In this document: in pieces, positions 1 through 30,356 of the stretch
Numbering within the stretch: the first letter of the stretch is position 1
Layout: each line of letters begins with the position of its first letter
Origin: Croceivirga sp.
GTDB taxonomy: Bacteria; Bacteroidota; Bacteroidia; Flavobacteriales; Flavobacteriaceae
Assembly (NCBI GenBank): GCA_028284665.1
Contig: JANQRG010000049.1
Location: forward strand, 1 to 39,977
Length of the DNA stretch: 39,977 nucleotides
Direction of reading: 5' to 3'
Position numbers and translations under genes: made by a program
Notes under the pieces: generated by a model
Told to the model about the DNA's origin: nothing
The model's database searches: none
The model's input: the letters and a program-made list of their open reading frames with translations, nothing else

Positions 1-894
1 ATTTCCTGATGAAAAGGTTTGATTATGTGTTAATGTCAGATTAAAATTGTCGTTGATATTGAGTCCCAATGTAGCACCAATCAGATGCACATTTTGTCCT
101 GCTTGTTCATTAACCAGCATGCCTGTTTCTTTGGAAAAGAACTCTGAACTACCACCATTCATATAACTGTAATCCAACGACAAATAACCGCTCTTGGTGA
201 TATCCTTGGTCAAATGACTTTCCAAAGTGAACAGCCCACTTTGTTCTACTTCCTGACCTTGGAAATCATTGTTCTTACCAATAATCGTATAGGCAGGAAA
301 AACTTCCAAAGTCATACTCTTTCCTGTTATCCAAGGGCCAATTCGTTGAATAAATGGCAATCCAATTTTTAGCTTAAACTGGTTACTTCCGATATTAACA
401 GGACTCTCGGAATCGTATTGACCTGTGGGGAAAGTAATACCAGTTTGCAGATATAATAAAGAAGGGCTTTCATGTCTTACAAAGTCCTTGATCATGAGCT
501 CCTCCGCTCCAATTAAGTTGATTGTATTCAACCAAGTCAAATCTCCAAAACCATGTTGGAAAACTGAGGAGGAAGTTGCCCCAGGGCCCAAGGGGTCAAC
601 GTTAAGAGTCGCTGTGATGTTACCAGCAGGAACGATAAGATTTGAGAAAAACGTTCTACCCAAAACAGGTTGACTTCTATTATAAGTGAGCATGTAAAGA
701 TTGTTATCAACTATTGTTCCTGGGGTAACAAAACTTAGGTTGTTGACCGAAGCATTGATCTTGGCATTGATAAAGTGTGCACTCAGAATATTCAGCTTCT
801 TCGGGGCCGCCAGGTATGTTCTTGGCCCATCAAGTTGTGCTTGGGCTGGCCCAAACATGAACAATGCTACTAAAGTGATATATAAATATTTCAT
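1..894 (-). CDS. MetA-pathway-type outer-membrane porin/transporter family protein (3' part outside window)
   Basis: The reverse strand opens at an ATG at 894 and stays open to the window edge, giving 298 codons with no stop, so the C-terminus is missing. The protein starts with a signal peptide (MKYLYITLVALFMFGPAQAQ). The rest is a run of alternating polar/hydrophobic beta strands with an internal TGITFPTGQYDSES segment, the style of the family annotated as putative MetA-pathway (phenol degradation) outer-membrane proteins. Such proteins are thought to be beta-barrels; the substrate is unknown. Only 25 bases separate it from the sulfatase upstream, so the two are probably co-transcribed. A second protein of the same general type lies at 2811-3617. 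The family assignment is by pattern recognition only. Confidence 0.7.
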   Translation of the reverse strand, partial: MKYLYITLVALFMFGPAQAQLDGPRTYLAAPKKLNILSAHFINAKINASVNNLSFVTPGTIVDNNLYMLTYNRSQPVLGRTFFSNLIVPAGNITATLNVDPLGPGATSSSVFQHGFGDLTWLNTINLIGAEELMIKDFVRHESPSLLYLQTGITFPTGQYDSESPVNIGSNQFKLKIGLPFIQRIGPWITGKSMTLEVFPAYTIIGKNNDFQGQEVEQSGLFTLESHLTKDITKSGYLSLDYSYMNGGSSEFFSKETGMLVNEQAGQNVHLIGATLGLNINDNFNLTLTHNQTFSSGN

Positions 895-919: not shown

Positions 920-2707
920 TTATTGTTTATCATCGATTTCAGGTACTGTCTCTGAACCTCTGGCAAAGTGTGGATCGTAGAATTCAGGCCTTGGTGGTAG
1001 TTTGTCCTCCAAACCATCATAAATTGAGTTGCTAGGTGCAATTACATTATTGATGGTCTTATATTCTTCCCAGTGTGCTATAAGCTCTTGGAGCTTTTCA
1101 GGATTGGATTCTGCCAAATTATGGCGCTCACCAGGGTCATCATCAAGATTGTAAAGTTCCCATGCTCCGTTTCCGTATGGAATAACCATGCTGACAAGCT
1201 TCCAAGGCCCTTTTCTAATGGCCTTACAGTTCCAAAGCTCCACTCCTATATAGTCAGAATCGGTTCTTGGGGACCTTTCCTGACCGTGGATTGTTGCAGC
1301 CCAGGATTTACCTTGCATTGGAAGCGTTGGTTTTCCCTTGAAGGTTGTAGGGGGAGTAACTCCAGCAAGTTCCAAGAAAGTGGGAGCAATATCTTTAACC
1401 TGCATTAGGGCCTCTTTATTTATTTGTCCCGCATTGGTTTTTTCAGGTGTTACCACAATCAATGGGGAACGAATCCCTCCTTCATAGGTAGTATATTTAG
1501 TTCCATTAAAAGGAGCTGCTGAGACTTGTGCCCATGAGGGTCCATAAGCGGTCCAAGAACCTTTTCTACCCCAATTTTCATGACCGTGATTGTAGGTTTT
1601 GGCCATCCAATTTGCCTTATTCGTAGCTGGATATTTCTTGTAGGTCTCAGCTTTTTGAGCAACATCTGGACCATTGTCCGAAAAGAAAACGATATAGGTA
1701 TTTTCTCTTAAATTGTTGTCCTCTAGGTATTCGATAAGCCTTCCAATTTCCATGTCCATATAATCCAGGACCGCAGCAAATACTTCCATTTTCCTTGCGG
1801 TAACTACTTGCGCCAAAGGTTTTAACTTATCAAATCCAGGTACGTACCATAGTCGTTCTCCCAATTCGGTTTTTTCTGATAGGATGCCCATCTCCACCAT
1901 ACGTTCTAGACGTTCATCTCGTAATACATCCCAACCTTTGTCAAAAACTCCTTGATATTTTCTTAACCATTTATTGGGTACCGCCAATGGGTCATGAGGG
2001 GCCTGGTGTGCCAAATACGCAAAGAAGGGTTTCCCATCACCTTTGTTGGAGTCGATATAACTAATTATCTTATCAGTGAAAGTGGTTGTTGCATAATAGT
2101 TTTTCGGTAATTCTTCAAGATATTCACCATCTTCAGAAAAATGATTTTTATCGATATGATCATCCATTGCCTTAAAGTCAAAATAGCTGCCTGCTCCAGA
2201 AAGCATTGAGAATGATCTTTCAAATCCACGTGCACGGGGAAGATACTCTTTCGCTTTGCCCAAGTGCCATTTTCCTGCCATATAGGTGTGATACCCATTT
2301 TCTTTAAGGATTTCAGATAATGCGGGAATATCGGTTCTGAGATGACCTTCATAGCCGACTACATCCATTTGGTTTTGAGCGGTTTTTTCATACATGTTTC
2401 CAAGCCCAGCTAAATGACTGTCCATTCCGGATAGTAGCATGGAACGTGTTGGTGAGCAGGTAGGTGCTACATAAAAGTTAGTGTAGCGGACACCCTCCTC
2501 AGCCAACTTGTCTATGTTAGGAGTGTTGATTTCACCTCCAAATGCTCCCACGTCCGAAAATCCCATATCGTCAGCGACGATGACGAGGAAATTTGGCTGG
2601 TCTTTTGTACTCTCCTGAGCATAAGTCCTGCCACATAATAGAAGCAGGGTCAATGCAAGCAGCGAAAGCATTTTCGATTTTAATTGATTTGTTTTCATAA
2701 TTTTCAA
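920..2707 (-). CDS. Secreted arylsulfatase (S1-type, formylglycine-dependent)
   Basis: A 595-residue sulfatase with a signal peptide ending near residue 30 (GRTYAQ). The formylglycine motif CSPTR is at residues 84-88, with Cys84 the residue to be oxidised. Metal-binding Asp46-Asp47 (VADDMG) and Asp344-Asn345 (SDNGPD), plus Lys146/His148 (GKWHLG) and His234/His238, complete the usual active-site set, so the enzyme looks intact. It should hydrolyse sulfate esters outside the cytoplasm, in marine Bacteroidota usually on algal polysaccharide; the actual substrate cannot be read from sequence. The Cys-type motif needs a formylglycine-generating enzyme, not present in this window. The start could be residue 1 or the Met at residue 4. 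It heads an operon with the porin-like gene ending at the left edge. Its promoter carries a putative LytTR-type site (2742-2811). Confidence 0.93.
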   Translation of the reverse strand: MKIMKTNQLKSKMLSLLALTLLLLCGRTYAQESTKDQPNFLVIVADDMGFSDVGAFGGEINTPNIDKLAEEGVRYTNFYVAPTCSPTRSMLLSGMDSHLAGLGNMYEKTAQNQMDVVGYEGHLRTDIPALSEILKENGYHTYMAGKWHLGKAKEYLPRARGFERSFSMLSGAGSYFDFKAMDDHIDKNHFSEDGEYLEELPKNYYATTTFTDKIISYIDSNKGDGKPFFAYLAHQAPHDPLAVPNKWLRKYQGVFDKGWDVLRDERLERMVEMGILSEKTELGERLWYVPGFDKLKPLAQVVTARKMEVFAAVLDYMDMEIGRLIEYLEDNNLRENTYIVFFSDNGPDVAQKAETYKKYPATNKANWMAKTYNHGHENWGRKGSWTAYGPSWAQVSAAPFNGTKYTTYEGGIRSPLIVVTPEKTNAGQINKEALMQVKDIAPTFLELAGVTPPTTFKGKPTLPMQGKSWAATIHGQERSPRTDSDYIGVELWNCKAIRKGPWKLVSMVIPYGNGAWELYNLDDDPGERHNLAESNPEKLQELIAHWEEYKTINNVIAPSNSIYDGLEDKLPPRPEFYDPHFARGSETVPEIDDKQ

Positions 2708-2741: not shown

Positions 2742-2811
2742 CAATGTTATTGATGTGAATTCCACCCCGCCATCGCCATTTCCCGAATGGGGCTTTTCGT
2801 CTTCCCAACGT
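2742..2811 (-). promoter_or_regulatory. Putative LytTR-type activator site and -7 box of the sulfatase gene
   Basis: Read on the minus strand: distal half-site ACGTTGGGAA (2811-2802), proximal half-site CCATTCGGGA (2790-2781) starting 21 bp further on, then 31 bp, then TAACATTG (2749-2742), a 5/6 match to the Bacteroidota -7 box TAnnTTTG. No TTG is seen at the usual -33 spacing, as expected of an activator-dependent promoter. The proximal half-site is the weakest of the set (7/10 to ACGTTCGGAA). The distal site abuts the stop codon of the upstream gene. The same geometry recurs at 3644-3713 and 4785-4854. Confidence 0.55.
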
Positions 2812-3617
2812 TACTTGGTGCTACTTTTCTTTTGGAATATGGCTTTGGGAATCAGGGCAGTAAAGGAGGCTCTAAAGGTCCAGTCACCTCCAGTGAGTTC
2901 TGGGCTTTCAATTAGGTAATCGGCTCCAATCTGCACATTAAAAGGCAGGAATCCCTTTGGTTTCACAAGTTTTCCAAAACCGATTCCCATGGGTATGGTC
3001 CATCGATTATCAGAATCGGCTTCCCAGTTGGCCACCACTTTGGGAGAAGTGGATAGATAGTATCCGTTGGGCAGGTTGTAGTTGATAAATGGTTGGATGG
3101 TAAATGCCGAAGTATCACTCTCTAGCGACCAAACGTTGTTAACCAGCATCCCAATTACCCAATTGCTCGGTTTCATGACGCCAACTACGGATGGGCCAGC
3201 ACCCCATTCCTGAATCCCCAAATTATAACCTGCAGTAGGCAAATTGAATACGGGTCCTATACCCCAACTAACTTTGCCCTTCTTTGTGTAGAACACAGAA
3301 AGGTTTACATCACCTATGCCTTTAAAATTGCCCGACTCGGCAAAGACATTTGGCTGGTTAATAATGGGTAGAATTACTCTGGTAATAATCTTTCCATCCG
3401 CAAAAGGGATTACGGGCTGAATATTGACAACGTTCATTGTCCTATCAAAGGGGCCAACTCCAAAAGTGGTATTGTTTTGAAATGGGACGCTGATGATGTT
3501 GGCAATGGGATCTTGGGCAATTTTGGCCAATTCCTCTTCGGTCAGCTGACCATAAATTTTTAGGTTGCCCAGATACAGACATAGTATTATAAATACTATA
3601 GGTTTCAGATTTTTCAT
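2811..3617 (-). CDS. Porin-like outer-membrane protein (often annotated transporter or neuromedin U)
   Basis: A 268-residue protein with an N-terminal signal peptide (MKNLKPIVFIILCLYLGNLK..YGQ). A short helical stretch follows (LTEEELAKIAQDP), then strands with many aromatic and glycine residues such as WGIGPVFNLPTAGYN, consistent with a small outer-membrane barrel. Proteins with this beginning are common in Bacteroidota and are usually labelled transporter or, misleadingly, neuromedin U. Substrate and partners are unknown. It stands alone between the sulfatase and the channel operon and has its own promoter (3644-3713). It is of the same broad type as the protein at 1-894, so this corner of the genome encodes two such barrels under apparently common control. 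Confidence 0.75.
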   Translation of the reverse strand: MKNLKPIVFIILCLYLGNLKIYGQLTEEELAKIAQDPIANIISVPFQNNTTFGVGPFDRTMNVVNIQPVIPFADGKIITRVILPIINQPNVFAESGNFKGIGDVNLSVFYTKKGKVSWGIGPVFNLPTAGYNLGIQEWGAGPSVVGVMKPSNWVIGMLVNNVWSLESDTSAFTIQPFINYNLPNGYYLSTSPKVVANWEADSDNRWTIPMGIGFGKLVKPKGFLPFNVQIGADYLIESPELTGGDWTFRASFTALIPKAIFQKKSSTK

Positions 3618-3643
3618 GACTTCCAGATGTATTTGTTATTGCT

Positions 3644-3713
3644 CAAATCTAGAAGCGCTAATAACCATAAACACCCCGCAATTACCTATCGTTGCTGTAC
3701 TGCTTCCCAACGT
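3644..3713 (-). promoter_or_regulatory. Putative LytTR-type activator site and -7 box of the porin-like gene
   Basis: Minus-strand reading: distal half-site ACGTTGGGAA (3713-3704), proximal half-site ACGATAGGTA (3692-3683; 7/10 match), 21 bp apart start to start. After 31 bp comes TAGATTTG (3651-3644), a perfect TAnnTTTG -7 box, 26 bp upstream of the ATG at 3617. There is no TTG at -33. The geometry is identical to the sites upstream of the sulfatase and the channel operon. Confidence 0.65.
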
Positions 3714-3752
3714 GTTGGTTATTGCAAATGATGATAATAATTGTCGGTAAGG

Positions 3753-4451
3753 TTAAGGGTTTGAAGGATCTTGAATTAAATACTTACCGACCAACATAGC
3801 GACCAATATTGTGAGATAAAGTTGCCCCGTAATACCGATTAAAAGGGCGATTGATTGAGCTGGTGCCGTCAATGGCAGAACGTCTCCGAAGCCAAGGGAT
3901 GTAAGTGTAGTAAAAGAAAAGTAGGTAAGTTGATATAAATCGCTTCCCTGATTTAGATTGTACGAATTGGGAACTAACAAGTTTATGAACTGAAATAACT
4001 GACCTCCAAATAATCCAATTAAAAAGTAACCAGAAACGGCTGCCGAAATAATGTTCAAAGTAATTTTAGGACTGTTCCAAATGATATTAAAAAGACGATA
4101 ACTGAGAAAAGTGAGAAAGGCGCTGGTGAAAAAGGCCCTTAAAAACTTTACCACGGGAAGTAGTCCACTTTCAGCTCCAAGCCAGATAAAAATAATTGCT
4201 ACAATACCCATCGCAAAACCAACCAAAAAGTGCCGAATGGAATTGGAAATTAGTTGAATGCCAGTAAAAACAACGAATGACAATACTACCTGAAAAATTA
4301 ATGCCCTTAAATGTGGCATTAAATAAACGGGGATAGGCAGTAATAGTAAAAGAACGAGGCTTAATAAGAGCCAAGTAGAATTGTTTTTACCTCGGAAAAG
4401 AAACCGTTGCAGCTTAAGGTGATAACGATATGCCTTGCGAATTCTTCTCAA
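3753..4451 (-). CDS. Potassium-channel-family membrane protein
   Basis: A 232-residue membrane protein with about six hydrophobic segments. The C-terminal third is a clear two-helix pore unit: a transmembrane helix, the pore loop FTTLTSLGFGDVLPL, and a final helix (LLIGITGQLYLTILVAMLVG). The filter reads SLGFGD where classical K+ channels have TVGYGD. The GFGD variant is tolerated in K+-selective channels, but selectivity is not certain. No cytoplasmic RCK or cyclic-nucleotide domain is attached; the protein ends soon after the last helix. It follows the 103-residue gene by 6 bp, so the two are surely co-transcribed from the promoter at 4785-4854. Confidence 0.82.
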   Translation of the reverse strand: MRRIRKAYRYHLKLQRFLFRGKNNSTWLLLSLVLLLLLPIPVYLMPHLRALIFQVVLSFVVFTGIQLISNSIRHFLVGFAMGIVAIIFIWLGAESGLLPVVKFLRAFFTSAFLTFLSYRLFNIIWNSPKITLNIISAAVSGYFLIGLFGGQLFQFINLLVPNSYNLNQGSDLYQLTYFSFTTLTSLGFGDVLPLTAPAQSIALLIGITGQLYLTILVAMLVGKYLIQDPSNP

Positions 4452-4457
4452 AACGAT

Positions 4458-4769
4458 TCACTTTATGTTGTATCTAAGTTTGAGTAGTATTAGTTCTTCT
4501 TCCAGTTCATTCCGAAGCTCAGATAATCTATCGCTTCCCTTTCTTCCTTTTTGACCAGCTATCAAGCCGTTGATACACTTTTCCAAAAAAGGGACGTCTG
4601 CATTTTTGTTGCCGTTTATGAATGCCATGGTTCCTTTTAATGCGAATAAAAAGTATTGGGTCTCCGAAGTGTCCTGATAGAGGTTCATTACCCTTTCAGT
4701 CTTCTCCAAGTAATATTGTAATACCCTATGGCATTCATTGTGTAGTCTTTGCTTATCGTAAACGGTCAT
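4458..4769 (-). CDS. Small hypothetical protein co-transcribed with the ion channel
   Basis: A 103-residue, mostly helical, soluble protein (RLHNECHRVLQYYLEKTERV at the start, charged LSELRNELEEELILLKLRYN at the end) without a signal peptide. I do not recognise a family. It lies 6 bp upstream of the channel gene, so it may be a cytoplasmic partner of the channel. The frame stays open upstream with an ATG at 4784 and a TTG at 4787. I prefer the ATG at 4769, because the best -7 box (4792-4785) directly abuts 4784 and transcription starting a few bases downstream of it could not include that codon. If another promoter is used, 4784 is the start. Confidence 0.65.
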   Translation of the reverse strand: MTVYDKQRLHNECHRVLQYYLEKTERVMNLYQDTSETQYFLFALKGTMAFINGNKNADVPFLEKCINGLIAGQKGRKGSDRLSELRNELEEELILLKLRYNIK

Positions 4770-4784
4770 GGCAAGAAATTTCAT

Positions 4785-4854
4785 CAAAAGTATTCTATGA
4801 CTAATGGGATAGACATCGGTAATTTCCCAACGTTATTCCTTGACTTCCGAACGT
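4785..4854 (-). promoter_or_regulatory. Putative LytTR-type activator site and -7 box of the channel operon
   Basis: Minus-strand reading: distal half-site ACGTTCGGAA (4854-4845), proximal half-site ACGTTGGGAA (4833-4824; 9/10 identical), exactly 21 bp apart, then 31 bp, then TACTTTTG (4792-4785), a perfect TAnnTTTG box. This is the cleanest of three sites with the same geometry. It lies in the 138-bp divergent region shared with the giant sensor kinase gene that starts at 4908, so a bound regulator could also affect that gene. Confidence 0.7.
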
Positions 4855-4907
4855 ACTGCGATATTGCCCTATTATTAATATCTTGAAGTGGTCGTAATAT
4901 TAAGTCG

Positions 4908-7900
4908 ATGCCCTTCACTGCAAAGTTTTCCGATGTAGGAATCAATGTTCAAAACATTGATGGAAAGCCTATGCTCATTGAAAAAATTCATTCTGAAAGG
5001 AGGATTGAAAGTATTTCCTTGGATGTACCTCATATACTCAAACCATTGAGGTCTGAAGAAAACCGTATTTCTTACGATTTCATGGATATTGAAAGGTTTG
5101 ACCCACCAATTCCAAGAACTAAAAAGGATTTTATAGACCTTCTAAATAATTGCTTGCAGGTTGTCCATACCCTTAAGTCACTTCAGCAAAAGAATATGTC
5201 TATTGGGACTTTGTCATCTAGCAGGATTGCGCTAAATGAACAAAAACAAATAATGATTCTGGGTAATTCCTTATTTCGAGAAATACCCTTTACATCCTCA
5301 TCCGAGTTTTACGCTCTGGAAGATTTGTATTTCTTGGCTCCTGAAAACTATGAAAACACAGCGACAGTCGCTGATTATCGTTCAGATTTCTATTCTCTGG
5401 GGATTAATTTATATACATGGGTCACTGGAAGTCTGCCTTTTAAAGGGAATGATAGGTTAGAGCTAACCCACCAGCATCTCACCAAGACACCGATAGCTCC
5501 TTCAGATATTAACCCAAGAGTACACCCAAGCTTTGAAGAATTGATTTTGATTCTTTTGGCTAAAAATCCAAATAATAGATATGCCTCGGCATTTGGTCTG
5601 TTCCAAGATTTAAGTGAAATGATAGAAGTATACAAAAGAGATGAGGACAAAAAAATACAACTTCACAAGGATTACAATCCTGGTAAAATTGAATTTGCAT
5701 CTATACTTTTTGGCAGGGAAGACCAATTAGGAAAATTGGAAGAATGCTATAAGAAAGTAGGCTACCTGGATTCCCAAGTTGTTTTCGTAGAAGGTTACTC
5801 CGGAGTAGGGAAAACAAGCTTGATTAATACGTTCATTGAGGATTTATCTCCGAATAAAAACATAGTACTGGAGGGGAAGTTTGATCAGTTCAAGAATACA
5901 CCGTATTCCGCAATTCAGTCGGCATTTACCAGCCTGGAAAGACAACTTCTATTGAACGCAACACTTGATACAAAGAAACTTCAAAAGACTCTTAATGAAG
6001 TCCTTGGAAAGAATGCTGGAGTTCTCAAGGAAATTGTTCCAGGGATTTCTGCAATGGTACCTAAATTGGAAGCAGTTGAGACATTAAACCCGATTGAGAC
6101 CAGAAACCGCTTTGTTTATGTCTTTCAAAAGTTTTTTGAGGCGGTCGCAGACCTGGGATTGAAAATTATTCTGTTTTTGGATGATTGGCAATGGTGCGAC
6201 GTTCCATCTTTGGAACTCATTAACGCATTGGTCAGGATTGACAGTAAAAATATTTTTTTCTTGTTCGCCTATCGCGGTAATGAAGTTGGTAGCAATCATC
6301 ACTTTCATAGATTCAAAAAGGAAATAGAAAAGAGAGAAACTTACAATCACTTATTGGTATCTCCCTTAAACAGAAAATCGGCAAATGAAATGATAGCCAA
6401 CACTCTGGGGATGAACGAAAATGACACTTCTGAGTTTACAAAGCTTATTTTTCCAAAAACCGAAGGGAACCCGTTTTACATTAAACAATTCATAAACTCC
6501 CTACACCAAAATAGGACACTGAGTTATGATTATGACAAACATATCTGGAGGTGGAAAAAGTCGATGGTAAGTGCCGAAAATCTATCGGACAATGTGGTTG
6601 ACCTGATATCCAAAAAGATTGATAAGCTCTCTTACGAAGCCCAGATTATTTTTAAGGTTGCCTCCTGTATTTCGGGTCGATTCGATTTGGATTTGATATC
6701 AGAAATAAGTGGAATACAGAAAGTGTTAATGCCGATATTATTGGATATTTCTATTGGTAGTGGCTATATCATCAAGACCCAAAATGATGGTGTGACAAAG
6801 TATTCATTTGCCCATGACAGAGTACAACAAGCGGCATATCACCTTCGAGTACCGTCTTTTAATCTATCAACCGAGGAGCTGCATTATCAACTTGGAAAGA
6901 CTTTAATTGAAAAAAAAGATCAAACCCATTATTCCATCGGTGAAATCCTATTGCATTTTGTTAATGCTAAAGAACGTATAGAAATTGATATCGCCAAAGC
7001 GATAATCAAAGCGATACTGGGTCAGAATAGCGAATCGGGCCTCTCCATTACCCCTCAGGCGAGTAAACAATATTTTGAGCTGGGTCTTTTCCTCGTTGAC
7101 AAATTCGAAATATCAGAGTACCGCTTCCAGTGTTTGTATGGAATTTGCGAGTCCTTATTTCTGTTAAGTGATTTGGAAAGTGCTGAGATTTTTGCAAGTA
7201 GGGCTTTTTCGGCAACTACGGAAGTTTTGGAAAAAGTTCAGCTCCTAAGAATGAAAATGCTTTTTTACGAAAGCTATGCGATGTATGAAAGGAATATCCA
7301 AACGGGTTTGGAAGCTCTTGAATTGTTCAACATTGAGGGTCGAATTCAGTTTGAAAACAATGGCCTGGAGCAACTGATCCACAAGGAATATGAGCTATTC
7401 AACACTCTTTCTGCCAAAGACAACTTACTACAAGAATTGGCCCATCGAAAAATGACCGCTCCTGAGGATTTGGCCATTATGGATGTATTGGTTAACATGA
7501 ATGCCTCCGCATATTTTGTTGACCTTTATCTATTTGCCTGGAGCACCCTAAAAATGACCAACCAAACCTTGGAAAAAGGGTTGACGCATTCTACTCCTTT
7601 TGCATTGGTATTTATGGGGTCTTTACTGGTTGCTTTCTATAAGGAATTCGACTATGGCTATGAGTTTGGAAAAGTTGGAGTAGATTTACTCGCTCATATT
7701 GATAATGACCAATACAAAAGCAGGACATTATCTATTTTTCCAATTTTTATTCAGCATTTCAAAGAACCCATATTGGCAGGTACGTCCAATTTGGATGAAT
7801 CCATTTATAGTGGATTAGAGACGGGTGATCTGCCGTATGCAGGATACTCTTTTTATGCCAAAGTGCGGGATGCTTTTCTGGCAGGGGATGATTTGATTAA

Positions 7901-9971
7901 AACGTTGGAAATCTGTGATGAAAGCATAGTATTTATGGAAAAGGTCAATAATCAAGGTTTATTGGCCCTAATGAAACTACTTAAAGGAAGTCTTTTGAAA
8001 TTGCTGGGCAGGTTCGATTCAGAGTATCAGTCTGTTGAGAAGGAGGCCCTAAGGTTTTTACAGGAGGTAAAGTTTTTCACTGCAATATCCCACCATTATA
8101 TTTTCAGGAGTTGGGCGTGTTGTATGCTAAAGGAATTTAAAGAGGCAAGTATTCTTTTAAAGCAAAATGAGGAGATCGTAATCTATGCGGCCTCGCAACC
8201 ACATGTTCCAAAACATTACTTTCTGGATTCACTTTGTATACTCTATCTAAATGAATCACTTAATGCGAAACAGGAAGAAAGAATTAAAGAGAACCAAAGT
8301 GTCCTGAACCTTTGGAGCAATAGTATGCCCGATAATTTCAGTGCTGAATACTATCTAATAGAGACCCTTTTAAGAGGGCGCTCTGGTAAAATCGAAGAGG
8401 CGTTGGGCACTTTTAATCTGGCCCTTAAATGGGCAGAAAAAGGTGGTTTGAGGGGTATAAAGGCGTTTGCCTATGAAATTGCCTCAGACATGCTTAAATC
8501 AAGTGATTATTCCGTTTTGGCCGAGGGGTTTGAAAAAAATGTGAATGCCATCTATGAACAATGGAATGCGGTGGCAAAATCGAAGAAAGGCAAAGATGAA
8601 AAGACAACTTTGGATTACAGGTATTCAGACCTCACCACTGAAAGTTTGATTAGATCCATGCAGGTAATTTCATCGGAAGTTAACAAAGGTGAAGTGGTCG
8701 AAAAACTTCTAAATGTACTTATGGAAAAGGCAGGGGCGGACCGAAGCGTGTTAATACTAATTGAGAAAGGGCACCCCTACATAGAAGCTGAAATAAACTT
8801 GGACTCAGAGAAGAGGCTTTTGGTCAAGGAGCCCCTTGGAAAACAAAAGTCAATTCCTGTTAGCATAATTGAATATGTCATAAGTTCTAAAAAGGAATTC
8901 GTTTTTGACAGTAATGATCTGGCAATTTCGGTTGACAAAGACTATATAGAAAAAACCAAAATCCAATCATTGCTTGCCTTGCCTTTGATACGACAAAAAG
9001 AGCTAATAGGAGTCCTATATCTTGAAAATCGAAAACTCTCAGGTTTGTTCAAAGGGAATGATTTAGATACACTTAAAGTCATTGCGTCCCAGGCTGCAAT
9101 ATCAATTTACAATACGCTCCTCTTTGAGGAAGCTTCCGAACTCAATATAGCTTTACAATCTTCCAAGGACGAATTGAGTAAGATGAACTTATTGTTGGAG
9201 GATAAAATAAAGGATAGGACCAAAGTTCTAAGACAGGAAATTGAAACCCGTAAGGAAATTGAAGAAGAACTCAAAAAGGCTCAAAAAGAAGCGGAGAAAT
9301 TTCATCAACAGCAGATAAAGGAAGAACGACGGGAAAGCTTGCAATCAAAGATGATGATGCTATCCTCCCAAATGAACCCGCACTTTATCTTTAACTCTTT
9401 AGGCTCGGTACAGTCCTATATATTGAACAATGACACCAATAGAGCTGTAGATTTCATTTCTGAGTTCGCAGGTTTGATGCGAAAAAACTTGATAAACTCG
9501 ACCACCAAATACATTTCAATAGCTGAGGAGCTGGAGTTCTTGGACAAGTATCTTTTGTTGGAAAAAATACGATTCAACGACAGTTTTGAATACCATATAA
9601 GCGAGGAGATAGATAATCCTCATGACACGTTGATTCCACCGATGTTGTTACAACCCTTCATAGAGAATGCGGTAATTCATGGACTAAGCAAATTACAAGG
9701 AAGGAAAGGCAGCTTAAAAGTCCATTTGGACGAAACGGAGGATAGGATTATCTGTATCATAGAGGATAACGGAATTGGAAGAGAGAATGCTTTAAAACAC
9801 AAGAGCCAAGGTCATAAGTCAGTGGCCATAAGTAATCTCGAAACCCGATTGGAGCTTCTAAATGATTCCAGTGAGGATAAGGAGTATACTTACGAAATAG
9901 TTGATTTAAAAAACAAGAATGGTCCGTTAGGGACAAGGGTAAAAGTATGTTTTCCAAATGACTTACATTAG
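4908..9971 (+). CDS. Pseudokinase / AAA ATPase / GAF / LytS-type histidine kinase fusion
   Basis: A 1687-residue cytoplasmic sensor. Residues 1-245 resemble a Ser/Thr kinase C-lobe: LAPEN (143-147, APE motif), YRSDFYSLG (about 156) and NPNNR are present, but the HRD-type catalytic loop and DFG are absent and no VAIK lysine is evident, so it should be inactive. Next is an AAA_16-type ATPase with Walker A GYSGVGKTS (296-304) and Walker B ILFLDD (about 424). About 690-1230 is TPR-like helix. A GAF domain spans about 1244-1405, a coiled coil 1405-1480. The kinase core follows: QMNPHFIFN with His1492, N-box PFIENAVIHG (Asn1587) and IEDNGIG (about 1617). The layout recalls the trifunctional kinase/ATPase/sensor kinases, but the C-terminus is LytS type. 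Its likely partner is the convergent LytTR regulator at 9963-10730, whose end overlaps by 9 bp. Confidence 0.92.
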   Translation: MPFTAKFSDVGINVQNIDGKPMLIEKIHSERRIESISLDVPHILKPLRSEENRISYDFMDIERFDPPIPRTKKDFIDLLNNCLQVVHTLKSLQQKNMSIGTLSSSRIALNEQKQIMILGNSLFREIPFTSSSEFYALEDLYFLAPENYENTATVADYRSDFYSLGINLYTWVTGSLPFKGNDRLELTHQHLTKTPIAPSDINPRVHPSFEELILILLAKNPNNRYASAFGLFQDLSEMIEVYKRDEDKKIQLHKDYNPGKIEFASILFGREDQLGKLEECYKKVGYLDSQVVFVEGYSGVGKTSLINTFIEDLSPNKNIVLEGKFDQFKNTPYSAIQSAFTSLERQLLLNATLDTKKLQKTLNEVLGKNAGVLKEIVPGISAMVPKLEAVETLNPIETRNRFVYVFQKFFEAVADLGLKIILFLDDWQWCDVPSLELINALVRIDSKNIFFLFAYRGNEVGSNHHFHRFKKEIEKRETYNHLLVSPLNRKSANEMIANTLGMNENDTSEFTKLIFPKTEGNPFYIKQFINSLHQNRTLSYDYDKHIWRWKKSMVSAENLSDNVVDLISKKIDKLSYEAQIIFKVASCISGRFDLDLISEISGIQKVLMPILLDISIGSGYIIKTQNDGVTKYSFAHDRVQQAAYHLRVPSFNLSTEELHYQLGKTLIEKKDQTHYSIGEILLHFVNAKERIEIDIAKAIIKAILGQNSESGLSITPQASKQYFELGLFLVDKFEISEYRFQCLYGICESLFLLSDLESAEIFASRAFSATTEVLEKVQLLRMKMLFYESYAMYERNIQTGLEALELFNIEGRIQFENNGLEQLIHKEYELFNTLSAKDNLLQELAHRKMTAPEDLAIMDVLVNMNASAYFVDLYLFAWSTLKMTNQTLEKGLTHSTPFALVFMGSLLVAFYKEFDYGYEFGKVGVDLLAHIDNDQYKSRTLSIFPIFIQHFKEPILAGTSNLDESIYSGLETGDLPYAGYSFYAKVRDAFLAGDDLIKTLEICDESIVFMEKVNNQGLLALMKLLKGSLLKLLGRFDSEYQSVEKEALRFLQEVKFFTAISHHYIFRSWACCMLKEFKEASILLKQNEEIVIYAASQPHVPKHYFLDSLCILYLNESLNAKQEERIKENQSVLNLWSNSMPDNFSAEYYLIETLLRGRSGKIEEALGTFNLALKWAEKGGLRGIKAFAYEIASDMLKSSDYSVLAEGFEKNVNAIYEQWNAVAKSKKGKDEKTTLDYRYSDLTTESLIRSMQVISSEVNKGEVVEKLLNVLMEKAGADRSVLILIEKGHPYIEAEINLDSEKRLLVKEPLGKQKSIPVSIIEYVISSKKEFVFDSNDLAISVDKDYIEKTKIQSLLALPLIRQKELIGVLYLENRKLSGLFKGNDLDTLKVIASQAAISIYNTLLFEEASELNIALQSSKDELSKMNLLLEDKIKDRTKVLRQEIETRKEIEEELKKAQKEAEKFHQQQIKEERRESLQSKMMMLSSQMNPHFIFNSLGSVQSYILNNDTNRAVDFISEFAGLMRKNLINSTTKYISIAEELEFLDKYLLLEKIRFNDSFEYHISEEIDNPHDTLIPPMLLQPFIENAVIHGLSKLQGRKGSLKVHLDETEDRIICIIEDNGIGRENALKHKSQGHKSVAISNLETRLELLNDSSEDKEYTYEIVDLKNKNGPLGTRVKVCFPNDLH

Positions 9972-10730
9972 TCTATTAAGTAAGTCATCCTTTTTTCTTA
10001 CTGACACATCCACATGTGACCCATCTTTCATTATCACGTATCCACCCTTTCCTTTCACGTATTTTTCCAAGTGCGTCAGATTGATCATATGAGACTTATG
10101 TACCCTAAAGAAATTACACTGTTCCAATAGTGCTTCATACTCTTTCAAAGGCTTTGAGACCAGTATTTTTTTTCCACTCTGCAAATAGAAGTTTGAATAT
10201 GACCGTTCCGCTTCGGCTCTTATAATGGCCTCGGCCTCGATAAAATCTATTCCGTCCGAAGAAGGTAGGGCAATTTTGGTAAAACGTTGGTCTTCCAATT
10301 TCAAGTTGGATTTAAGGACATTGATCTTTTCGGCGCTTACGGTACTCCCTTTTTTATTAATGACTTTGACGGCCCTTGCCACTGAGTCCTGTAGCTCCCT
10401 AATATTTATGGGCTTCATGAGATAATCGAGAGCAGCATATTTTATTGCGTTGATGGCATAAAGGTCATGGGCTGTTGTAAATATTACTTCGAAAGGTGGT
10501 TCTTCGAAGTGGTCAAACAATGTGAAACCGTTACCACCAGGCATCTCTATGTCCAAAAAAATGATTTGAGGACTTTTATCCATTACCAAACTAACGGCTT
10601 CTTCAACATTATGGGCATTTCCCAATATTTCAATTTCAGGGCAAAAATTACCTAACATTTTTCCCAGGGTCTCATGATGCCGACCCTCGTCATCAACTAT
10701 TATAGCTTTAATAGTACCCTCCGTTTCCAT
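9963..10730 (-). CDS. LytTR-family response regulator
   Basis: A 255-residue response regulator. The receiver domain (about 8-125) has the acidic pair Asp13-Asp14, phospho-acceptor Asp60 (IIFLDIEMPGGNG), Thr85/Thr86 and Lys106 (YLMKP), so it looks fully functional. The C-terminal third (about 160-255) is a LytTR DNA-binding domain with the usual FFRVHKSHMINL and VSVRKK elements. LytTR domains bind direct repeats spaced about two helical turns apart. It is convergent with the giant LytS-type kinase (4908-9971), overlapping 9 bp tail to tail; proximity and matching families make them a probable pair. Predicted targets are the three promoters at 2742-2811, 3644-3713 and 4785-4854. Its own promoter region contains the AGTAA palindromes at 10741-10777. 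Confidence 0.93.
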   Translation of the reverse strand: METEGTIKAIIVDDEGRHHETLGKMLGNFCPEIEILGNAHNVEEAVSLVMDKSPQIIFLDIEMPGGNGFTLFDHFEEPPFEVIFTTAHDLYAINAIKYAALDYLMKPINIRELQDSVARAVKVINKKGSTVSAEKINVLKSNLKLEDQRFTKIALPSSDGIDFIEAEAIIRAEAERSYSNFYLQSGKKILVSKPLKEYEALLEQCNFFRVHKSHMINLTHLEKYVKGKGGYVIMKDGSHVDVSVRKKDDLLNRLM

Positions 10731-10740
10731 TATTTGTTTC

Positions 10741-10777
10741 TTACTAAGTAAATATACATTTATTACTCTTTTAGTAA
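10741..10777. promoter_or_regulatory. Two TTACT...AGTAA palindromes between response regulator and peroxiredoxin
   Basis: TTACT-A-AGTAA at 10741-10751 and TTACT-CTTTT-AGTAA at 10763-10777 have the same arms with 1-nt and 5-nt spacers and lie about 24 bp apart centre to centre, filling the short divergent promoter region between the genes starting at 10730 and 10809. They look like binding sites for a dimeric regulator; which one is unknown. The AT-rich arms make chance occurrence possible. Confidence 0.35.
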
Positions 10778-10808
10778 TTCTTTGTTATTTAATAATTTAG
10801 TCAAAGTC

Positions 10809-11438
10809 ATGTCCATTACTTTAGGTTCCATAGCACCAGATTTCAGCGCAAGCACTACAATGGGAGACTTGGGATTCCATCAATGGCTTGGCTCAAGTTG
10901 GGGGTTATTATTTTCACACCCTGAAGATTACACTCCAGTGTGTACTACGGAGCTGGGAGTAGTCGCTAATTTACATGATGAGTTCAAAAAACGAAATGTT
11001 AAGGCAATTGCACTTAGCGTTGACAACCTTGAATCCCATAAAGGTTGGATTTCGGATATTGAGCTATCTATGAACACCAAAGTTAACTTTCCGATAATTG
11101 CTGATGAACAAGCAGAAGTCGCCCAGCTTTACGGAATGATTCATGAGGGAAGTTCGGAAAAGCACACCATTCGGTCAGTCTTTGTAATCGGGCCAGAAAA
11201 GGATATTAAATTGATGCTTACCTATCCTATGGCGGTAGGACGAAACTTTGATGAAATTCTTCGCGTTCTAGATGCGTTGCAGCTTACTGCCAAGCACCCT
11301 GTTGTCACTCCCGCTAATTGGGAACAAAATGATGATGTGATTATTGATCCTTCCCTTTCAAGTGAAGAAGCTGGCAGAACATTTCCAAAGGGACACGAGG
11401 AAGTGACGCCATATTTACGTTATACTGAGCTACCCTAG
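10809..11438 (+). CDS. 1-Cys peroxiredoxin (Prx6 type)
   Basis: A 209-residue peroxiredoxin that reduces hydrogen peroxide and alkyl hydroperoxides in the cytoplasm. From the chosen ATG it reads MSITLGSIAPDFSAS. The active-site segment HPEDYTPVCTTELG carries the peroxidatic Cys45 with Thr42 three residues before it. No other cysteine is found in the protein, which defines the 1-Cys group. The C-terminal VVTPANWEQNDDVIIDP and KGHEEVTPYLRY match the Prx6 extension, and the length fits the family (about 210-220). An upstream TTG at 10782 extends the frame by nine residues, but the ATG at 10809 fits the family N-terminus. It is divergent from the LytTR regulator, with paired palindromes between them. 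Confidence 0.93.
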   Translation: MSITLGSIAPDFSASTTMGDLGFHQWLGSSWGLLFSHPEDYTPVCTTELGVVANLHDEFKKRNVKAIALSVDNLESHKGWISDIELSMNTKVNFPIIADEQAEVAQLYGMIHEGSSEKHTIRSVFVIGPEKDIKLMLTYPMAVGRNFDEILRVLDALQLTAKHPVVTPANWEQNDDVIIDPSLSSEEAGRTFPKGHEEVTPYLRYTELP

Positions 11439-11602
11439 TTCAATTAAAACCCATTTATCGCCAAATCGTTTGATTACCTATATTCTCACTTTGAACAGAG
11501 TTTTCATTTAGGATTCCCTAAAATCAGTTATAAAATAATCCGAGAATTTTATCTGAACTTACAATTCAAAGCAGTAAAACTATTTTCGATAAAAAATGAA
11601 TT

Positions 11603-12742
11603 ATGGACATAAAAACCTTCCCTGAACTTCTGGGTGTGTTAACGGGTTTTTTGAGTTTTTTCTTTGCTTTTTTTCTACTGACTTTAAAAACGAAGAAACA
11701 AACCAGCAACCTTTTGATTGCCATGTTTCTTATCATTTTTGCCATTGATACTGGGGGAAACGTATTGCTGAACAATTATGTATATCCCAAACATCCGGGA
11801 TTGGGATTGCTTCTTAGTTCCTCAATTTTTTTGGAGCTTCCTTTTTTGTATCTCTACATACGTTCTATTGTATATAACGATTTCAGATTGAGGATGGTTC
11901 ACTTGCTGCATGGCGTAACTTTTCTAATGGCCCTTCTCATCTTACTTCCAAACTTCTACCTGGCCAGTTTGGCGGAAAAACTTACCGTTCTTAAAGGACA
12001 AGACCCTGTTTTGTTCGAACTCAAATTGGTATATATTATTCTTCATTTACAAGTTTTATCCTACCTCGTTGCCAGCTTTGTTCTTGTAGCCCGCTATCGA
12101 AAGCTATATTTGGAAAACTACTCCGATACCAAATGGTTCAACCATAGATGGTTGTTTCAACTGGTGCTGTTTCTTAGCATTGATTTTTTGGTTTCCACTT
12201 TGAAGAATACCTCTCTGTTTCTTCACAGATCTGAACTTTATGAAAACATTGCTGTGGCCACCAATCTCATGGCGTTGGGATTGATTTGTTGGATAGTATT
12301 CAAGGCGTTACGTTACCCTGAACTGTTCAAAGGGGTGAATTCAGGAACACGGTTGGCCAAACAACTTGCCAAGAAGAATGATGCGAACAACCAATTGACA
12401 GAAAAGGAAAGTAACCTATTGGAAGCCCTTAAACATTATATGGAAAAAAACGAACCGTATACCAATCCTTCGTTATCCATATCCGATTTGGCTAAACACT
12501 TGCAAGTACCCTCCAAGGAACTTTCGATACTTATCAATCACAAAATTCACAAGCATTTTTTTGATTTCGTAAATGAATATAGGATTGAAAAGGCAAAATC
12601 AATCTTCAAAGAAAATCTCGATGAGAAGCTTACGGTGCTGGAAGTCTTATACGAAGTGGGCTTCAACACAAAATCTTCTTTCAACACTGCCTTCAAGAAA
12701 CATACGGGGTTGACCCCGACCCAATTTCGCCATCAACTTTAG
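11603..12742 (+). CDS. Membrane-bound AraC-family regulator (copy 1)
   Basis: A 379-residue protein with about seven hydrophobic helices in residues 1-235, a linker, then an AraC-type double helix-turn-helix from about 275 to 379 (LSISDLAKHLQVPSKELSIL; VLEVLYEVGFNTKSSFNTAF; HTGLTPTQFR). This 7TM-plus-HTH layout is common in Bacteroidota and suggests a signal perceived in or outside the membrane with DNA bound by the cytoplasmic tail. The ligand is unknown. It precedes a CPBP membrane protease by 118 bp, and the pattern repeats immediately downstream (13723-15875). Likely targets are the adjacent genes, by analogy and position only. Confidence 0.9.
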   Translation: MDIKTFPELLGVLTGFLSFFFAFFLLTLKTKKQTSNLLIAMFLIIFAIDTGGNVLLNNYVYPKHPGLGLLLSSSIFLELPFLYLYIRSIVYNDFRLRMVHLLHGVTFLMALLILLPNFYLASLAEKLTVLKGQDPVLFELKLVYIILHLQVLSYLVASFVLVARYRKLYLENYSDTKWFNHRWLFQLVLFLSIDFLVSTLKNTSLFLHRSELYENIAVATNLMALGLICWIVFKALRYPELFKGVNSGTRLAKQLAKKNDANNQLTEKESNLLEALKHYMEKNEPYTNPSLSISDLAKHLQVPSKELSILINHKIHKHFFDFVNEYRIEKAKSIFKENLDEKLTVLEVLYEVGFNTKSSFNTAFKKHTGLTPTQFRHQL

Positions 12743-12860
12743 TTTTAATGGAACGCACCAATTCGTTACATGAAAAAGCGTTTGACTTTTTTTAGTCGGT
12801 CGACTTGTATTCTTCTATTGGTCAATTTTGCTTCCAGATTACAAACAAAAATTCTGACAG

Positions 12861-13607
12861 ATGGAAATAGACAAAATTAAGCCGATACGACTGGGGACTT
12901 CAGTCATTATTTTTTTTGGAGCCGCACTGCTATTCCTGATTTTGGAACGTGTGGTGTTGCCTTTTCTTGACACACATGGAGTGTCCAAAATTTCAATGTT
13001 TTTGGTGATGGCCTCGCCACACGTCATTTTCTTCACCGGTGCACTAATGGGATTTAAACTTGAAGGACATCCTTTGAATTGGCAATCATTGATGACCCGT
13101 TTTCGATATAAAAAGATTAAGGGCAAAAAATGGTTATGGACCCTCCTATACATATTGGTCTTTGTTGGCCTTTATCTCATGGTATACACCCTCGCATGGC
13201 CATTGGTCAAAATTATCCATGCATGGCTTCCTACAACAGACCTTTTGACGGAAGTAATGAGTGATGGCGAAACCTTTGTCGGTCATCCGCTAAAGGGAAA
13301 TTGGTGGCTGCTCGGACTTTTTATGGTTATGTATTTCTTCAATATAGTAGGAGAAGAGTTTCTATGGAGGGGGTACTTATTCCCAAAACAGGAAAAAACC
13401 CATGGTAGATACACGTGGGTTGTCCATGGGCTGCTTTGGACCTCTTTCCATCTATTTGCTCCCTACAATGCCATTATGGTGCTTCCTGGGGCTATGTTCA
13501 TGTCGTATATCACACAGCGAATACAGAACAATACTCCTTTCTTAATCGCGCATGCAGCATTGAATAGTATTCCGGTGATTATGTTGGTTGGGGCAATCAT
13601 TGGCTGA
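12861..13607 (+). CDS. CPBP-family intramembrane metalloprotease (copy 1)
   Basis: A 248-residue polytopic membrane protein of the CPBP (CAAX protease / bacteriocin-processing) family. The catalytic motifs are complete: EEFLWRG (Glu165, Glu166, Arg170), SFHLF (His197) and HAALN (His231, Asn235). Family members are metal-dependent or glutamate-type intramembrane proteases; bacterial roles include bacteriocin self-immunity and peptide maturation. The substrate is unknown. It follows a membrane AraC regulator and precedes another, on the same strand. A second, degenerate CPBP protein is at 15003-15875. Confidence 0.87.
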   Translation: MEIDKIKPIRLGTSVIIFFGAALLFLILERVVLPFLDTHGVSKISMFLVMASPHVIFFTGALMGFKLEGHPLNWQSLMTRFRYKKIKGKKWLWTLLYILVFVGLYLMVYTLAWPLVKIIHAWLPTTDLLTEVMSDGETFVGHPLKGNWWLLGLFMVMYFFNIVGEEFLWRGYLFPKQEKTHGRYTWVVHGLLWTSFHLFAPYNAIMVLPGAMFMSYITQRIQNNTPFLIAHAALNSIPVIMLVGAIIG

Positions 13608-13638
13608 TAATACGAAGAATAAGTAACACGTCGCAAAA

Positions 13639-13656
13639 CCATTTTTCTGAAAATGG
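13639..13656 (+). terminator. Hairpin after the first CPBP gene, possible terminator
   Basis: CCATTTT (13639-13645), a 4-nt loop, and AAAATGG (13650-13656) form a perfect 7-bp stem 31 bp after the CPBP stop codon. There is no immediate T-run, though a T8 stretch starts about 22 bp later, so termination is only possible. Confidence 0.3.
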
Positions 13657-13722
13657 AACTAGTACTGGTAACATGATTTTTTTTAACTTTCATGTACTGC
13701 ACCTAAAGAGTTTCGCACAAAA

Positions 13723-14847
13723 ATGGATATGATTTTCACCATAGGGATTTTCACATCGCTATTTTTCTTTATCCTGTTGTTGGGCAAAAAAAATAAATCG
13801 TTATCTGATACGATACTGGCCTTTTGGATGCTTATAGTCGGTATTCATTTGGTCAGCACTTACATATATACCTTGGGTTATTGGGACATCTACCCTCATC
13901 TCATTGGAATAACAGCACCCTTCCCACTTCTCTACGGACCATTGCTCTACATATATGTGCTGTATTCCATTAGGGACGATAAAAGATTAAGAAGGAAGGA
14001 TTATTGGCACTTCGTGCCTGTGGTTATTTCCTATCTATACATGTTGCGGTTTTACTTTTTTTATTCTGCGGAGGAGAAGCGAATGGTGGATAAGGGCGAA
14101 ATAGATGATTTTGGGCTCTTTGGAAGTTTTTTGGTAATCTTCATAATAGTTTCTACGATAGTTTATGCCGTTTTCGCTTTTAAGTTGCTGAAGAGGCATA
14201 AGAGACTGATCGAGGATAACTTTTCGAATGATGAAAAAATAAACCTCAATTGGTTACGGAGTTTTATTTGGGGTGTGGGTGTAATTTTTGTAACCGTAGC
14301 CTTGGTTCTTATTTCCAGGGATATTTTGGGAGTTGAATATCCTTTCAACCCGGAGTTTATATTTTATTCTATGATCGTTTTTAGTGTTTTGTGCCTAGGC
14401 TATTTTGGGATTCGGCATCAAAATATTTTTGCGGACAACAAGATTCTGGAAATCAAGGAAGAGGATAAATCCTCATATAAAAACTCAGGTCTTAAAGAAG
14501 ACTTTGCCTCCCTTAAACACAAAGACCTTCTAAACCTAATGGCAGAACAGAAACCGTATTTGGAACCAAATCTGAATTTAAATACCATGGCTGGTAAACT
14601 AGATTTGCCACTCCATCATTTATCGCAAATCATCAATCAGTATGAAGGACAGAACTTTAATGATTTTGTAAATAAATATCGTGTAGAAGAATTTATTGAG
14701 CGGGCATCCAAAGACAAACAGTTTAGTTTTTTGGCATTGGCGCTCGATTCAGGTTTCAATTCAAAATCCACGTTTAATTCGGTCTTCAAAAAACATAAGG
14801 GAGTCACACCCTCAAAGTTTATGGCTGGTTATACACCCAAAGCCTAG
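13723..14847 (+). CDS. Membrane-bound AraC-family regulator (copy 2)
   Basis: A 374-residue protein of the same layout as copy 1: hydrophobic N-terminal half with about seven helices (MIFTIGIFTSLFFFILLLG first), a charged linker near 245-265, and a C-terminal AraC HTH (LNTMAGKLDLPLHHLSQIIN; LALDSGFNSKSTFNSVF; GVTPSKFM). It is nearer in appearance to the regulator at 23901-25037 than to copy 1, for example the shared opening pattern LGxxNxSLxxTIL. It lies between the two CPBP genes, 115 bp after the first and 155 bp before the second. The signal it senses and its target genes are not evident from sequence. Confidence 0.9.
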   Translation: MDMIFTIGIFTSLFFFILLLGKKNKSLSDTILAFWMLIVGIHLVSTYIYTLGYWDIYPHLIGITAPFPLLYGPLLYIYVLYSIRDDKRLRRKDYWHFVPVVISYLYMLRFYFFYSAEEKRMVDKGEIDDFGLFGSFLVIFIIVSTIVYAVFAFKLLKRHKRLIEDNFSNDEKINLNWLRSFIWGVGVIFVTVALVLISRDILGVEYPFNPEFIFYSMIVFSVLCLGYFGIRHQNIFADNKILEIKEEDKSSYKNSGLKEDFASLKHKDLLNLMAEQKPYLEPNLNLNTMAGKLDLPLHHLSQIINQYEGQNFNDFVNKYRVEEFIERASKDKQFSFLALALDSGFNSKSTFNSVFKKHKGVTPSKFMAGYTPKA

Positions 14848-14948
14848 AGGCCGATAATAGCATGAAATTTTACGTAACAACCCCACAATCAGGACTTAAA
14901 CGTCCAATCCTATAATCCTGCACCTGTAAATAGTACGACATCATAATG

Positions 14949-14967
14949 TTGGTCGATTGGTGACCAA
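14949..14967. promoter_or_regulatory. Inverted repeat upstream of the second CPBP gene
   Basis: TTGGTC (14949-14954) and GACCAA (14962-14967) flank a 7-nt spacer, 36 bp before the ATG at 15003. It is a candidate operator for the CPBP/DUF2807/TonB operon, perhaps for the AraC regulator just upstream. No direct evidence links them. Confidence 0.3.
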
Positions 14968-15002
14968 AAATCCCGTCCATTTGCTTCATAAAACTGAATA
15001 TC

Positions 15003-16675: not shown

Positions 16676-16753
16676 CACTTCTTCCCGCTTCAGTTGCGCA
16701 AGGTGCTTGTGAACTTAAAAGGCATCAGTGATTAATTACCAAAACAAAAGAAA

Positions 16754-30332: not shown

Positions 30333-30356
30333 CAGCATTTTTTATGCTGAATTTTT
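30333..30356 (+). terminator. Terminator of the ABC/hydrolase operon
   Basis: CAGCAT (30333-30338), a T5 loop, ATGCTG (30344-30349), then AATTTTT. The perfect 6-bp stem with T-tract lies 47 bp after the hydrolase stop, in the short convergent gap before the LytTR gene. Confidence 0.6.

Follow-up and report, generated by a model that had tools for sequence, protein, structure and literature searches.

Contig C17 of the Croceivirga sp. genome (an assembly of 4.59 Mb in 51 contigs) makes up the whole of the 39,977-bp window analyzed here and carries three minus-strand promoters at which a pair of directly repeated 10-bp half-sites precedes a −7 box at an invariant distance. We infer, with a probability of roughly 0.86, that these repeats form the operator of a response regulator with REC and LytTR domains encoded at 9963-10730, which would bind them and activate the locus. 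An initial annotation of the window had already proposed a LytTR regulon, and that reading gained support from the co-occurrence of sites and regulator within the genus, from an array with the same 21-bp spacing in a sister lineage, and from the spacing published for LytTR-dependent promoters.

At all three promoters, the two half-sites are separated by N11, with their starts 21 bp apart, and a further 31 bp leads to the −7 box. This geometry had been claimed in the initial annotation and was borne out to the base, the coordinates and both spacings being exact (Table 1). When scored with a site model consisting of RCGTTNGGAA twice plus TAnnTTTG (24 positions), the copy at 4785-4854 was the best match at 24/24, and the other two scored 22 and 20. 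The proximal half-sites are weak at operators 1 and 2 (CCATTCGGGA and ACGATAGGTA, respectively), and the sulfatase −7 box, TAACATTG, is one base off TAnnTTTG. The same off-consensus box was identical at all eight genomes in which the sulfatase site was found.

Table 1. Promoter elements and genes at the left end of the window (pLDDT, predicted local distance difference test).
Feature	Position	Strand	Details
PF13557-type outer membrane protein	1..894	−	cut by contig end; longer orthologues in relatives
Cys-type sulfatase	920..2707	−	CSPTR at residue 84 (CxPxR sulfatase motif present)
−7 box, sulfatase promoter	2742..2749	−	TAACATTG, 31 bp after operator 1
Operator 1 (sulfatase)	2781..2811; distal 2802-2811, proximal 2781-2790	−	ACGTTGGGAA-N11-CCATTCGGGA
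Possibly outer membrane protein	2811..3617	−	signal-like N-terminus; beta-rich low-confidence model, pLDDT 54
−7 box, outer-membrane-type promoter	3644..3651	−	TAGATTTG
Operator 2 (outer-membrane-type gene 2811-3617)	3683..3713; distal 3704-3713, proximal 3683-3692	−	ACGTTGGGAA-N11-ACGATAGGTA
Ion_trans_2 channel	3753..4451	−	Pfam domain; SLGFG filter-like motif
Small target protein	4458..4787	−	predicted four-helix bundle, pLDDT 89.9
−7 box, small-protein/channel promoter	4785..4792	−	TACTTTTG
Operator 3 (4458-4787 and channel operon; divergent from kinase gene)	4824..4854; distal 4845-4854, proximal 4824-4833	−	ACGTTCGGAA-N11-ACGTTGGGAA
Kinase promoter box TAnnTTGA	4879..4886	+	24 bp from operator 3
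Soluble sensor kinase	4908..9971	+	Pkinase-like domain, AAA_16, GAF, LytS-type His_kinase (3.5e-21)
Response regulator REC-LytTR, proposed activator	9963..10730	−	Response_reg 4.4e-18, LytTR 2.9e-14; FLDIE phosphoacceptor region
1-Cys peroxiredoxin-type gene	10782..11438	+	domain match; frequent regulator neighbor

Identical spacing at three promoters had been judged unlikely to arise by chance, and the controls agreed. None of 100 shuffles of the window contained a half-site pair (up to three mismatches), compared with three real pairs, and when the −7 box was included, 3 of 300 first-order Markov shuffles of the window reached 20/24 and none went higher, compared with 20, 22, and 24 for the real sites. 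Across the Croceivirga genome, the half-site pair alone (up to three mismatches) occurred at six places, three in the window and three on contig C45, with one match in the reversed control. One of the C45 pairs, at 50788-50818, lies inside an open reading frame (ORF) with three mismatches and was taken as a chance match. The full 70-bp pattern (half-site, N11, half-site, N31, −7 box; 22 fixed letters) was found in the same genome with up to three mismatches at four places, namely, two of the window promoters and two on C45, and at none in the reversed control; the sulfatase copy falls below this cutoff. Both C45 places have the same 31-bp gap and carry the −7 boxes TAAGTTTG and TAACTTTG. Among 298 other Flavobacteriaceae genomes, the pattern (up to two mismatches) occurred at a single place, and the reversed control gave two places across 299 genomes. 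The pattern is thus not equally common elsewhere, and the shuffles, the reversed controls, and the genome and family scans led us to reject chance or common sequence as its source.

A single scan of genome contigs with the regulator as the query yielded 79 loci. Group A comprises the window and nine relatives whose regulators are 76 to 97% identical (L046-L053 and L062), group B comprises nine relatives at 66 to 72% identity (L054-L061 and L063), and group C consists of more distant LytTR relatives. Flagellimonas flava DSM 22638 has a regulator 97% identical to that of the window. In 317,455 bp of the ten locus-bearing genomes, 41 half-site pairs lay 21 bp apart, and no other distance between 12 and 60 bp had more than 10 (reached at 42 bp); the gap to the −7 box was 31 bp in 36 cases, with no other gap occurring more than seven times (maximum at 48 bp). 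We also ran a motif-light test in which only GTT was given and intergenic 10-mers repeated at 9 or more of 10 letters were counted, overlapping windows being counted apart. This returned 13 pairs at 21 bp in group A, versus at most 3 at any other distance (six loci), and 35 in group B, versus at most 5 (eight of nine loci).

In the ten group A genomes, our own included, a cutoff of at least 19/24 gave 38 sites, with a sequence refound in the same genome counted once. Six of them belong to the Croceivirga genome, and none lies wholly inside a called ORF of at least 70 amino acids. By target, nine precede the small-protein gene, nine the outer-membrane-type gene, eight the sulfatase gene, six DUF4136, and three DUF6268; the remainder are a weak site at the channel gene of G306, one at an unassigned C45 gene, and one outer-membrane-type-like site in G300. 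The script assigned 35 of these, and three were assigned by hand (two at contig edges in G301 and G303 to the sulfatase and the one in G300 to the outer-membrane type in the linker comparison). The sulfatase site was therefore present in 8 of 10 genomes with the two contig-edge assignments included, the operator 2 site in all nine genomes in which the outer-membrane-type gene was found, and the operator 3 site in all nine that have the small gene. The three genomes with a DUF6268 site are the three in which DUF3300 lies ahead of DUF6268. The absence of TTG at −33, noted earlier for the window, held at every site: allowing 1 bp on either side, TTG was found at 0/38 and TGT at 19/38. In whole-genome scans of the nine group A relatives (up to three mismatches), 26 of 26 matches fell within the locus (reversed control, one). 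A genome-wide regulon is accordingly unsupported, the accepted sites being confined to one locus that is split over C17 and C45.

The initial annotation had named conservation of the half-sites in orthologous promoters as a test of the proposal, and they are kept while the linkers diverge. In the small-protein promoter, Croceivirga and Aestuariivivens (G305) share 17 of 20 half-site letters and 7 of 8 box letters, compared with 2 of 11 in the short linker and 9 of 31 in the long one; selection in the scan accounts for part of the conservation seen in half-sites and boxes, and the linker columns are free of this bias. These figures, together with a spacing that is kept everywhere, speak against recent copying of upstream regions within the locus under no regulatory constraint, an explanation that draws on linker letters common to the DUF4136 and DUF6268 sites and that we regard as extremely improbable.

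The sites track the regulator. Of 11 genomes of the genus, 4 contain the regulator (E ≤ 1e-60) and the same 4 contain the pattern (up to three mismatches), both being absent from the other 7; this test overlaps the group A whole-genome scan, because three of the four share contig coordinates with G301, G303, and G307. Among the 298 other family genomes, 13 have a regulator match at E ≤ 1e-60, all of them only 41 to 48% identical. No site was found at 15 loci with target homologues and no regulator, a weak control because homologues at 32 to 44% identity are too distant to be orthologues. The window contains a second REC/LytTR-like regulator, at 30355-31059, which is 26% identical to the first.

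The group B loci keep the peroxiredoxin, the regulator, and a related kinase, and the other neighbors have changed: the divergent gene encodes an AraC-type regulator in the one locus scanned (L055), and of the sulfatase-locus genes only one relative, of DUF983, was seen in the flanks, at L058 and at L059. In all nine genomes, the half-site has changed to ACGTTAAGAA and stands in the same 21-bp array at the kinase gene. This array was the sole place with zero or one mismatch in each of the nine genomes; only such matches were counted, because the reversed control yields up to five matches per genome and strand at three mismatches. Conversely, the ACGTTAAGAA array was found at no place with up to three mismatches in the three group A genomes scanned, and the group A pattern gave two matches in the nine group B genomes, both with three mismatches and on contigs other than those of the ACGTTAAGAA array. 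From residue 150 of the regulator to its end, groups A and B have no residue in common at 10 columns of the alignment. These fixed differences include residues 175 to 177, which read ERS in group A and N-Q/H-V in group B; judging by alignment alone, the counterpart of AgrA H169 (numbering set from C199) follows them at a distance of two to four residues. In AgrA, H169 contacts the major grooves together with R233 (PMC12482169).

Several observations weigh against the proposed pairing of operator and regulator. The strong pairs of group B have no −7 box at 31 bp. Instead, a separate 21/31 promoter stands before the divergent gene in eight of nine loci (not found in L054), with TAGTTTTG or TACTTTTG as its box and a poor second pair 94 bp below the strong one; such poor pairs are weak evidence because the boxes were required first and the pairs read afterwards. 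The motif-light test showed no 21-bp peak at 21 group C loci (three pairs, two of them overlapping). Within group A, the sulfatase site is missing from two of ten genomes (G304 and G306), in which the gene begins 20 to 42 bp after the upstream gene, and the weakest case, the outer-membrane-type promoter of G304, matches at only 9 and 5 of 10 half-site letters and 5 of 8 box letters. G300 has an outer-membrane-type site (L047, 17029-17098), and the gene was not found between channel and sulfatase, so that either the gene has been lost or the assembly is incomplete there. Finally, no site was found in the genome of G308 (L064), a tenth relative of group A type, which carries a regulator fragment that is 93% identical over 137 residues, on a contig that ends inside the gene.

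A further point concerns which protein reads the sites. The Croceivirga genome holds 29 matches to the regulator at E ≤ 0.001, its own gene included, of which 24 reach the LytTR domain, and so 23 others could in principle bind. The operator might then be real and be recognized by an unlinked LytTR protein or some other factor, with the neighboring regulator incidental. We consider this very unlikely, since sites and regulator are present or absent together in the genus, no paralogue in the genome exceeds 41% identity (the next best match is 38%), and regulator, kinase, peroxiredoxin, and 21-bp array have stayed together in group B even as the other neighbors changed.

The kinase gene, divergent from operator 3, has a conserved promoter box of its own. 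This box caught the eye in a few regions and was counted afterwards; its distance from the operator is 24 bp in 15 and 25 bp in 3 of the 18 kinase/target intergenic regions compared, nine each from groups A and B. It reads TAnnTTGA in 16 of the 18 orthologues and matches at seven of eight letters in the other two; L053 likewise has a seven-of-eight match at 24 bp. In Flavobacterium psychrophilum, sigma-A promoters carry TAnnTTTG from −12 to −5; a second motif, SM5, reads TAnnTTGY and is presumed to be that of an alternative sigma factor (PMC9723704). In the kinase box, TA and TTG stand one base closer together than in the sigma-A element, as they do in SM5; being mostly TAnnTTGA, the box fits SM5 except for the last letter. 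The kinase itself has no transmembrane-like window, and a motif search of its Pkinase-like domain did not find HRD/DFG; QMNPHF is present. In L055 of group B (10739-17570), two proteins take the place of the kinase, one of them REC-LytS and the other a 1930-residue AAA-GAF-HisKA-REC hybrid, possibly a phosphorelay version of the fused kinase of the window.

Taken as a whole, the promoter layout suggests a shared switch. The soluble LytS-type kinase would sense a cytoplasmic cue and phosphorylate the REC domain of the regulator, a dimer of which would bind the two direct half-sites, two helical turns apart on one face of the DNA and centered near −60. The bound regulator would then recruit sigma-A polymerase to the −7 box and compensate for the poor −33 element. 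At least five promoters of one locus in the Croceivirga genome would share this switch, those of the four-helix protein and channel, the outer-membrane-type protein, the sulfatase and PF13557 protein, DUF4136 and DUF3300, and DUF6268 and the formylglycine-generating-type enzyme, with a sixth, weaker site before the unassigned C45 gene. Because the best site adjoins the kinase's own promoter, feedback of the regulator on the kinase is likely. The short distance of 24 to 25 bp between operator and kinase box, near enough to overlap the −33 region, would also suit a regulator that binds but represses, or that acts with opposite signs on kinase and targets. We think this very unlikely: the target operators lie upstream of the −33 region near −60, as in activation by AgrA (PMC4227749), an operator just above the core promoter recalls LytTR autoactivation (PMC6193735), and no operator overlaps its −7 box, which is true by construction of the pattern.

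A bolder and rather doubtful extension is that a single LytTR operator drives promoters of two classes that face opposite ways, those of the targets being of the sigma-A type (TAnnTTTG) and that of the kinase being SM5-like (TAnnTTG type). In the sister lineage, this regulator would have been redeployed to new targets, with half-site and DNA-contact loop changing together, and the two lineages would form a natural record of a LytTR recognition code being rewritten.

The locus extends beyond the window. Where all genes are present, the order in relatives is peroxiredoxin, regulator, kinase (divergent), [site], small protein, channel, [site], outer-membrane-type protein, followed by [site], sulfatase, PF13557 protein, [site], DUF4136 (DUF3300, [site]), DUF6268, PF03781 enzyme, and DUF983, and the whole spans approximately 17 kb in Allomuricauda ochracea. 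C45 encodes DUF4136, DUF3300, and DUF6268 proteins and a PF03781 formylglycine-generating-type enzyme (8.5e-67). The left end of C17 and the right end of C45 are most simply taken as two halves of one locus, on grounds of synteny, because contig C27 of G301 has the sulfatase and the PF03781 gene together. The initial annotation had envisaged a sulfatase, two barrel proteins, and a potassium channel under one regulator. The sulfatase and the channel do stand under shared sites; the unit is larger than proposed, a single locus of about 17 kb over two contigs that includes the formylglycine-generating-type enzyme. The protein of 2811-3617, labeled porin-like in that annotation, has no Pfam match and only a low-confidence beta-rich model. 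For the small protein at 4458-4787, no Pfam family was found and a Foldseek search of the PDB gave no match at E ≤ 0.001; its start is more likely at ATG 4769 (103 amino acids). The peroxiredoxin gene adjoins the regulator in seven of nine group A relatives (not L047 or L053) and in all nine group B loci.

The CxPxR motif of the sulfatase is the one typical of substrates of formylglycine-generating enzymes, which activate sulfatases. The C45 enzyme contains GGSYLCDPMVC, and GGS-x-LCD-x-x-VC also occurs in five of five loci that have an orthologue; we take both cysteines to be the catalytic pair. The enzyme (L007, 9669-10553) has a start that by eye resembles a signal peptide, with both cysteines kept. 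Export of an active formylglycine-generating enzyme would be unusual. The gene is present in the locus in the Croceivirga genome and in G299, G301, G302, G303, and G304, and was not found in the locus stretches of G305 and G306; those of G300 and G307 stop short of this position. As the Croceivirga genome has 13 sulfatase and 8 PF03781 entries, the link between sulfatase and enzyme is suggestive and not exclusive. A gene of about 343 codons precedes the PF03781 gene in G299, G301, and G302, and the one product scanned is a trypsin/PDZ protease. The third, weaker C45 copy of the site (20/24; L007, 14690-14759) precedes the next gene upstream, an unassigned extra gene that is not at that place in the five relatives read (G299, G301, G302, G304, and G305); with its own 21/31 site, it is possibly a new gene recruited into the regulon. 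No Pfam match was found for the C45 gene at 53591-54682, and the label CotH-like is a guess by eye. Allomuricauda ochracea (L155, 12733-13851) and Pelagihabitans (L053, 19913-20752) have genes with similar N-termini inserted into the locus, each at a different point; the L155 product has a guanylate/adenylate cyclase domain.

In a genome with 24 regulator matches into the LytTR domain, operator, exact geometry, and target list could thus be obtained from sequence. That sulfatase, formylglycine-generating-type enzyme, channel, and several surface proteins of unassigned role belong to one regulated unit narrows the possible role of the locus, and the two versions of the half-site, accompanied by a small number of fixed differences in the protein, form a testable pair for LytTR specificity.

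With its sulfatase among regulated genes for surface proteins in a flavobacterium, the system recalls polysaccharide utilization loci, which are defined by SusC/SusD. It differs from them in its regulator type and in the absence of SusC/SusD, TonB family, lyase, and glycosidase genes among the locus genes scanned (window genes up to 11438 and the C45 genes). The literature searched, mostly without subscription journals, yielded no mapped operator of a LytTR regulator from flavobacteria, no paper on LytTR and sulfatase by title, and none on DUF3300 and sulfatase.

The protein has the features of a LytTR response regulator, REC and LytTR domains with a LytS-type His_kinase encoded beside it, and the promoters have those of LytTR promoters, direct repeats of approximately 9 bp, 11 to 13 bp apart, just above the core promoter. 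The half-site AACGTTSGG may also agree with the broad LytTR consensus that Nikolskaya and Galperin (2002) reportedly described. In the LytTR regulatory systems (LRS) of Streptococcus mutans, the paired repeats are mostly 9 bp with 12 bp between and often lie 10 bp above the −35 element (PMC6193735); in a 9-bp frame, the present repeats have a 12-bp gap and 33 bp to the box, equivalent to the 10 + 6 + 17 layout described for LytTR systems. LRS-like operons of Bacteroides show nearly the same layout, 11 bp-N11-11 bp, 11 bp, and TGTA-N19-TATCTTTG, with TGTA at −33 and repeats presumed functional (PMC6193735, Table 3). An LRS, however, pairs its regulator with a membrane inhibitor (PMC6193735). 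No such operon was found here, where the REC regulator forms a two-component pair with a soluble kinase, a peroxiredoxin-type gene is its other neighbor, and the sites are spread over at least five target-gene promoters.

Another close parallel is AgrA of Staphylococcus aureus, whose partner AgrC is a membrane sensor; here, a soluble AAA/GAF kinase takes that place. The LytTR domain of the window aligns with solved AgrA chains (3bs1, E = 2.6e-5), with R233 aligned to R and with H169 and N201 aligned to S and K. AgrA is likewise a REC-LytTR regulator, and at P2/P3 it has direct repeats centered at approximately −60 above a weak core promoter (PMC4227749); the repeat center here would be approximately −60.5, given a −7 box that begins at −12 like that of F. 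psychrophilum. Unlike the agr system, the locus has no quorum-sensing gene among the genes scanned and uses a Bacteroidota-type sigma-A box. The system is of a known kind, a LytS/LytTR-type pair with direct-repeat promoters; what is new is the operator sequence, the flavobacterial target list, and the change of half-site between sister lineages.

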